A DNA stretch of 37,733 bases, taken from positions 1-37,733 of the forward strand of contig JASJCN010000013.1 in assembly GCA_030065975.1 (NCBI GenBank). Direction: 5' to 3'. Of the stretch, positions 29,214-30,764 are shown piece by piece (within the stretch, counting starts at the first letter, position 1; each line of letters opens with the position of its first letter). A program made the position numbers and the translations under genes. This stretch comes from Myxococcota bacterium. Lineage in GTDB: Bacteria; Myxococcota_A; UBA9160; UBA6930. The notes below the pieces were generated by a model. The model saw nothing but the letters and a program-made list of their open reading frames with translations, ran no database searches and had not been told where the DNA came from.

Positions 29214-29465
29214 ATGCCGATCCCCGAAGACCTGATCGAGATCCTCGTCTGCCCCGAGACCCGCCAGCCGGTCGCCCTGGCGACGGCCGAGCAGCTCGAG
29301 CCCATCAACGCGAAGATCCGCGACGGCTCGCTCCGCAACCGCGGCGGCCAGCCGGTGAGCACCGAGATCCAGGAAGCCCTGATCCGCGAAGACGGCAAGA
29401 TCCTCTACGTGATCGACGACGGCATCCCCGTCATGCTCGTCGAGGACTCGATCGAGCTGGCCTGA
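29214..29465 (+). CDS. Trm112/UPF0434 family protein
   Basis: MPIPEDLIEILVCPETRQPVAL...ILYVIDDGIPVMLVEDSIEL, typical length and ends. Confidence 0.82.
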   Translation: MPIPEDLIEILVCPETRQPVALATAEQLEPINAKIRDGSLRNRGGQPVSTEIQEALIREDGKILYVIDDGIPVMLVEDSIELA

Positions 29466-29491
29466 CCGCCGCTTCGCTCCTCGCCCTTCGT

Positions 29492-29668
29492 CTTGGGAGG
29501 GTCGGGGGTGGGGACGGCTCCCGGCTCATGGCTCGCTGCCGGCCGCGCCGCCGCTCACGCAGGTCCGACCCCGGACGCCCGAGCGCTTGCGCGCTCGACG
29601 CCCGTTCCGCCAAGACCGCCGGACGGGCGAGGCTGCGCTTGACTTCCCCGGAAGCCGTCCCCACCCCC
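29492..29668 (-). ncRNA. Candidate structured RNA/DNA element, copy L (165-nt stem-closed body 29504-29668 plus conserved 12-nt 3' tail 29492-29503)
   Basis: Minus strand: closing stem GGGGGTGGGGACGGCT (29668-29653) / AGCCGTCCCCACCCCC (29519-29504); GAGCGC-GCAA-GCGCTC hairpin (29581-29596); blocks GAAGTCAAGCGCAGCCTCGCCCG and GCAGCGAGCCATGAGCCG; tail GACCCTCCCAAG. Confidence 0.6.
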
Positions 29669-29771
29669 TCCGCGCAGCTCGGGCGGCGGATCGGGCCCCC
29701 CATTCCAAAGAGAGCCGAACGAGCGTCGAGCAGCTCCCTACCGGAGCGCGCCCGCCTCCGCGCAACGAGGA

Positions 29772-29948
29772 GGGGCGGGGGATGGGTGGAGGCGAAGTCA
29801 AGCGCAGCCTCGCCCGGCACTCAGGCGTGAAGGACTGGACTGGAGCGCGAAAGCGCTCACAGGCCAGCGGCACCCACCCCCGAGAGCGGAGTCACCGCGC
29901 GCAGCGAGCCATGAGCCGCAACCCATCCCCCGCCCCGACCCTCCCAAG
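29772..29948 (+). ncRNA. Candidate structured RNA/DNA element, copy R (165-nt stem-closed body 29772-29936 plus conserved 12-nt 3' tail 29937-29948)
   Basis: Plus strand: closing stem GGGGCGGGGGATGGGT (29772-29787) / ACCCATCCCCCGCCCC (29921-29936); GAGCGC-GAAA-GCGCTC hairpin (29843-29858); blocks GAAGTCAAGCGCAGCCTCGCCCG (29794-29816) and GCAGCGAGCCATGAGCCG (29901-29918); tail GACCCTCCCAAG. Confidence 0.6.
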
Positions 29949-29981
29949 CAACCGCAGGAGAAGAACGCGGCCCCGTCCAAC

Positions 29982-30764
29982 CTACTGCGCGAACTCGCGG
30001 CGTTTGAGCTCTTTGACGTACTCGGACAGCGCCGGGTCCGCCGCCACCAGCTCGGAGACGTTGCGTTCGAAGGCCGCGGAGTCGCGCTCGAGGGGGGTGC
30101 GGTCCACGGGGAGGTCCAGGAGCTCCGCCGCCGTCTGCACCAGGGCCAGGGTGCCGCGCGGGTTCGGCGTCACCGTGATGTAGTGAGGCAACCCGGCCCA
30201 GAGGCTCGTCACCTCGAGCCCCTCTGCACGCAGTCGATCGGCCAGCACGCCGGTGATTCCCGTCGGCCCCTCGTAGTCCGAGGGCTCGACGGCGAGCTCG
30301 CCGAGCAGGCTCGGCTCCGAGGAGAAGCCGCTCACGCGAACCGGGCGCGAGTAGAGCACGTCGGCCAGGAAGCCTCCGAGGAGCACCGCACGCCGGATCG
30401 ACAGGGTGTCGACCGCACGCACCACGAGATCGCAGAAGCTGCGCCAGCGCAGGTGCGGCTCGGCGCCGACCCCGAACACCAGCTCGGGCCGGTCGGGGAT
30501 CGCCGCGAAGCGCAGCTCGAAGTCGGGCCAGGCGATCTCCCGCACGCCCTCCTGTCCGATGCGCACGTTGGGACGCCGGACGGTGAAGTCGTAGAAGTCC
30601 TGGCAGTCGATGCGACCCAGCGGGGCCGACTGGAAGCTGTCCGACAGGAAACGCACCGCTCCGGTGGCCGACTCGCCCGCGTCGTTCCAGCCCTCGAACG
30701 CCAGCATCAGGACCGGGTCCTCGAAGGCGGGCTGGACGTCGAAGCGAAGGGCGTTCAGGGTCAT
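29982..30764 (-). CDS. PAC2 family protein
   Basis: PVLMLAFEGWNDAGESATGAVRFL...GFLADVLYSRPVRVSGFSSEPSLLGELAVEPSDYEGPTGITGVL, PAC2 fold motifs. Confidence 0.88.
   Translation of the reverse strand: MTLNALRFDVQPAFEDPVLMLAFEGWNDAGESATGAVRFLSDSFQSAPLGRIDCQDFYDFTVRRPNVRIGQEGVREIAWPDFELRFAAIPDRPELVFGVGAEPHLRWRSFCDLVVRAVDTLSIRRAVLLGGFLADVLYSRPVRVSGFSSEPSLLGELAVEPSDYEGPTGITGVLADRLRAEGLEVTSLWAGLPHYITVTPNPRGTLALVQTAAELLDLPVDRTPLERDSAAFERNVSELVAADPALSEYVKELKRREFAQ

Follow-up and report, generated by a model that had tools for sequence, protein, structure and literature searches.

The window analysed here, a stretch of 37,733 nt, probably carries two back-to-back copies of a non-autonomous mobile palindromic repeat that is specific to one bacterial order. 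The copies, R on the plus strand and L on the minus strand, lie between a Trm112-like and a PAC2-family gene, and on balance we regard them as members of an undescribed family of mobile, hairpin-forming repeats in the uncultured bacteria of this order. The original prediction had presented the pair as a candidate structured RNA family. Selection on a folded strand and the lack of a match in Rfam agree with that proposal, but the elements proved to be interspersed repeats, gained and lost at orthologous sites. Because they are interspersed and variable at such sites, mobile repeat DNA is the best reading of them and an ordinary non-coding RNA family is not, and single-stranded DNA fits the folded molecule equally well.

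The coordinates of the inverted pair and its two 165-nt bodies were verified, and the two flanking genes converge on the gap that holds them. Recomputed from the sequence, the closing stems of R and L are 16 bp each without mispairs; four of the 16 pairs differ between the copies, and all four differences are compensated. The 23-nt, 18-nt and 12-nt blocks that had been described as fixed align without a difference, and an independent search recovered inverted arms 73 nt (79%) and 59 nt (80%) long. Single-strand folding of the two elements gave z-scores of -3.6 and -4.1 against shuffles. The pair is not a product of chance: it far exceeds it, eight more matches occur in its own genome, and the same design is found order-wide. 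The features are as follows.

29214 to 29465, plus strand: Trm112-like gene, an ORF whose stop codon adjoins the L tail; orthologues in seven family members, where the gene order is conserved
29468 to 29482, plus strand: left outer repeat GCCGCTTCGCTCCTC, an exact pattern match that corresponds to the composite-unit terminal inverted repeat of genus g5
29492 to 29503, minus strand: L tail GACCCTCCCAAG, from the alignment
29504 to 29668, minus strand: element L, arms 29653-29668 and 29504-29519, from alignment, fold and a covariance-model match of 125 bits
29526 to 29535, minus strand: L core half 2, CGAGCCATGA, invariant family-wide
29581 to 29596, minus strand: L inner hairpin GAGCGC-GCAA-GCGCTC, from sequence and fold
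29633 to 29646, minus strand: L core half 1, GAAGTCAAGCGCAG, invariant family-wide
29669 to 29771, no strand: spacer separating the divergent elements L and R, from the sequence
29772 to 29936, plus strand: element R, arms 29772-29787 and 29921-29936, from alignment, fold and a covariance-model match of 181 bits
29794 to 29807, plus strand: R core half 1, GAAGTCAAGCGCAG, invariant family-wide
29843 to 29858, plus strand: R inner hairpin GAGCGC-GAAA-GCGCTC, from sequence and fold
29905 to 29914, plus strand: R core half 2, CGAGCCATGA, invariant family-wide
29937 to 29948, plus strand: R tail GACCCTCCCAAG, from the alignment
29957 to 29972, plus strand: degenerate right outer repeat GGAGAAGAACGCGGCC, compared with GAGAAGCGAAGCGGC of relatives
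29982 to 30764, minus strand: PAC2-family gene, an ORF whose stop codon adjoins the R tail; orthologues in eight relatives

Ten matches on seven contigs were found in the window genome with copy R as a blastn query, including a second divergent pair; two of the ten lie at contig ends and one begins in the first bases of a contig. A covariance model built from nine copies matched 28 of 61 relatives. Across the phylum, a pattern of the two core halves recovered copies in 31 of 379 genomes, every one of them from the order of the window, which numbers about 80 genomes, with no match in the roughly 299 genomes outside it and none for the reversed-pattern control. Carriers hold between 1 and 53 copies, with exact-pattern counts of 53 in G052, 35 in G009, 27 in G302 and 25 in G005. 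A narrower pattern run over about 85,000 species genomes matched a single contig, from the MAG Deltaproteobacteria bacterium OFTM60 (G010:C70), and viral contigs and plasmids gave no match to the element. Element sequences are closer to those of the same genome than to those at the same site. At four loci of G009 (L162, L167, L170 and L173) the partner elements carry the core variant GGAAGTAAAAGCGGAGCC...TGAGCCATGGAGC, so that these pairs consist of two subtypes, and two near-identical tandem copies with one stem arm in common were seen at a contig end in G052 (L189, G052:C22, 15-254).

Family members measure 85-180 nt and follow one plan: outer stem, GGCGAARTNAAGCGCAGC, variable middle, GCGAGCCATTCGCC or GCGAGCCATGAGCC, and outer stem again, with a middle close to zero length in G042. 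The outer stem of about 26 bp is free in sequence and almost perfect in pairing, while the internal loop, GAARTMAAGCGCAG...CGAGCCAT, is invariant across the family. With the register anchored on the core, outer positions 7-24 were 86-99% Watson-Crick in 135 copies from 25 genomes, usually with four pair types. In-register pairing was also well above off-register pairing in 46 copies picked by core sequence alone, a set in which a few G302 copies were shifted by one base. The inner pair alternates between C-G, G-C and T-A and is paired in 98%; since it covaries, what remains is an asymmetric, invariant internal loop, RUMAAGCGCA/GAGCCA. At the edge of this loop GAA/UUC gives way to GAA/UGA in roughly one copy in four. 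The restriction of the hairpin loop to GNRA, part of the original prediction, holds for the window pair (GAAA in R, GCAA in L) but not family-wide, where GNRA accounts for 4 of the 19 middle tetraloops; other loops in the window genome were GUCA, GAAC, GAAA, GCCA, GAACA and GAA. GNA triloops, a weak pointer to DNA, are common in genus g5 and in G052.

Mismatches in the stems identify the strand that folds. Among 170 in-register copies, G.U outnumbered A.C by 66 to 10 unique events (p = 3e-11), with G.U in 22 genomes and A.C in 2. The corresponding changes in the unpaired middle of related copies stood at 115:67 (Fisher p = 1e-4 against the stem), so mutation bias is not the explanation. Reading the opposite strand would turn each G.U into A.C, and the strand originally chosen is therefore the folding strand. 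There is selection on the folding of one strand, plus for R and minus for L, as RNA or as single-stranded DNA; the claim of selection for a folded structure is thus upheld by order-wide covariation, by in-register stems in copies chosen by core sequence and by the excess of G.U over A.C.

The position of the elements relative to genes, called with a purpose-written codon-usage gene caller, is asymmetric. A gene end aimed at the element within 200 nt was found on the tail side of 106 of 127 copies, whereas the head side gave 40 of 128. Of 155 copies off contig edges, 49 had a neighbour, and all 49 were arranged head-to-head with tails outward; tail-to-tail or same-strand neighbours numbered 0 of these 49. 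A tail-side gene accompanied 44 of the 49 paired and 85 of the 106 single copies, and among single copies a gene on the tail side only was seen 40 times against 10 for the head side only. The distance from the stop codon to the stem, in the sense of the gene, is mostly 10-60 nt, the gaps are mostly convergent, and the flanking genes are ordinary. Orthologous genes carry the element in different families (thioredoxin, RpoD, GlnB, PAC2 and an LLM-class gene); by a rough estimate such recurrent sites exceed chance, a point against the mobile reading, and they could mean that the element has a conserved function in the host or that insertion favours certain hot spots. GAGNAGCGAAGCGGC was considered as a general gene-end motif and discarded, with 22 one-mismatch matches in the genome against 14 for the reversed control; the exact matches, which mostly adjoin elements, are the informative ones.

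Occupancy varies between sister genomes at syntenic sites, and the family is thus mobile. The Trm112-PAC2 gap is about 10 nt long in G010, holds one element in G005 and holds two in G009 and in the window genome (G000). Of eight G009 sites followed within genus g5, three were filled in G005 and none in G011-G013, and the flanking genes were kept at C272, C217a and C127 where g5 sites were compared. Composite units in this genus (G005/G009) are bounded by terminal repeats GCCGCTTCGCTTCTC...GAGAAGCGAAGCGGC, of which the window retains the left one intact. Terminal inverted repeats are clear in these composites and in G046, and are not evident in G022, G302 and G052. A possible target-site duplication, TCGCT, was noted at one G005/G009 site, and no clean constant duplication was found at the sites compared. 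In G261 a whole composite unit is duplicated with 90% identity; an autonomous copy was looked for between the duplicated pairs, and the region held just two related ORFs, lipoprotein-like by eye, with no transposase recognised. Most copies in G046 (L075, L079, L082 and other loci) are bounded by CCCTGATTCG...CGAATCAGGG. One locus of G005 (L256, 1230-1450) resembles a hybrid element, as if the two members of a pair had recombined into one.

One strand (plus for R, minus for L) folds into a hairpin with an outer stem, an asymmetric invariant loop and a short inner stem around the variable middle. If the elements are mobile repeats of this kind, the RUMAAGCGCA/GAGCCA loop would be the putative binding site of a trans-acting enzyme. 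The folded strand may be the form that is moved or copied, most simply as single-stranded DNA, as with REP/REPIN and IS200/IS605-type elements, and insertion beside stop codons, chiefly between convergent genes, would be tolerated because it breaks nothing. Mobilisation by a RAYT was rejected, as the Y1 transposase (PF01797) is absent from G052, G057, G046, G261, G035 and G017, each with at least 7 copies; so was a TnpB partner, a TnpB-type nuclease (PF07282) being present in 1 of 15 carriers tested (G035). The distribution of IS110 and reverse transcriptase families did not follow the element either. These negative results on a mobilising enzyme, like the lack of a constant target-site duplication, weigh against the mobile reading. 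There is also a slim chance that the folded strand acts as RNA, spreading itself by being copied back into DNA near gene ends or guiding a putative enzyme, with the loop as active or binding site. To our knowledge no RNA-level mobile repeat of this kind has been described in bacteria, and the element would, if this were true, be the first we know of. Most bacterial palindromic repeat families are known chiefly at the sequence level, and the present one adds order-wide, strand-resolved evidence of selection for a folded single strand. Its invariant loop offers a handle by which the enzyme or protein acting on the element might be traced, and the sister genomes offer known sites of copy gain and loss.

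A functional structured non-coding RNA, in which the folding strand is transcribed, the loop binds a protein or ligand and copies have spread secondarily, is a possible but unlikely alternative. Covariation, the strand-specific tolerance of G.U, the invariant asymmetric loop with its covarying inner pair and the stable fold of the element would all be expected of it. However, G.T is also the best tolerated mismatch in DNA, promoter-like conservation upstream was not noticed in the alignments, and presence is patchy even inside one genus; the range of copy numbers and the resemblance of elements to genome-mates and not to site-mates are likewise difficult to reconcile with such a role. Rfam covariance models returned no match at gathering score in the window (HEARO, GOLLD, ROOL and group II introns being among the families named for checking), where weak matches at E values up to 10 were implausible, and none in the element at seven loci with copies, the one match there being an ordinary tRNA outside it.

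A bidirectional terminator or insulator, each hairpin stopping antisense read-through into the convergent gene and so guarding the gene on its tail side, appears somewhat less likely still. The location just past stop codons in mostly convergent gaps suits this role, as does the filling of the Trm112-PAC2 gap in G006, G001 and G011 by other long inverted repeats, but the same gap in G010 is without any hairpin, no U-tract was seen past the stem on either strand, the invariant loop is not needed for termination, and the G.U/A.C bias indicates the strand opposite the adjacent gene. That wrong strand, together with the missing U-tract, led to the rejection of a terminator serving the adjacent gene itself. 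It is very improbable that the stems are kept perfect, free of selection, by template-switch correction during replication, the quasipalindrome mechanism that the original prediction had named as its own challenge. Stems in G022 are nearly perfect while differing almost wholly between copies, as such correction would produce, but correction is strand-blind and is disfavoured by the 66:10 bias of the stems relative to the middle; the invariant loop and covarying inner pair are left unexplained by it.

The family belongs among bacterial mobile palindromic repeats, resembling REPINs, MITEs and YPAL. Integron attC sites also fold as a single strand, have a variable middle and lie just downstream of genes, and these three properties are found here too, but the outer R-box pattern was not noticed, there are no tandem same-direction cassettes, and conservation is internal, not terminal. 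REPs are described as 20-40 bp palindromes tagged at one end by GTAG or CGTC, and for some of them (CGTC REPs) no transposase is known either (PMC3733652; PMC3116915); their heterodimers sit between convergent ORFs, near 3' ends (PMC3733652). The present elements are, like REP, REPIN and BIME sequences, palindromic, extragenic and found as inverted pairs at ORF 3' ends in convergent gaps; unlike REPs, they are 85-180 nt long, have an invariant loop within a long stem of free sequence and bear no constant end tag, the stem ends and tails varying between genomes and between copies, and the Y1 transposase of the REP/RAYT system is absent from several copy-rich genomes. By size, tag and transposase the element is not a REP. 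YPAL/RU-2 of Yersinia, in the account of its general properties, is about 168 bp, palindromic and intergenic, with internal inverted repeats and mobility shown by empty and filled sites (PMC2229807). The likeness, drawn from description, extends to all of these, whereas YPAL is enterobacterial and neither the pairing rule nor order-wide covariation features in that account (PMC2229807). Classical MITEs (Correia/NEMIS, ERIC, RUP) are summarised in the same account as small and non-autonomous with terminal inverted repeats (PMC2229807). The present copies are similarly small, non-autonomous, non-coding, dispersed and polymorphic, with terminal inverted repeats in the g5 composites and G046, but these repeats are lineage-specific, an internal folded core is conserved, and no TA duplication was seen.

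Other insertions were observed in the orthologous Trm112-PAC2 gap. That of G006 (L251) holds a different hairpin, near-perfect over about 40 bp (GGAGCGGGGACGGACTCCTCAAGTTTCAACTTTGCAAGTT...) and possibly from a separate repeat family, and those of G001 (L246) and G011 (L247) hold long inverted repeats of other kinds that lack the core; hairpins seem to be drawn to convergent gaps in the window's family. In G002 (L249, about 2320-2855) the orthologous gap contains a HicB/HicA-like toxin-antitoxin pair, as judged from sequence.
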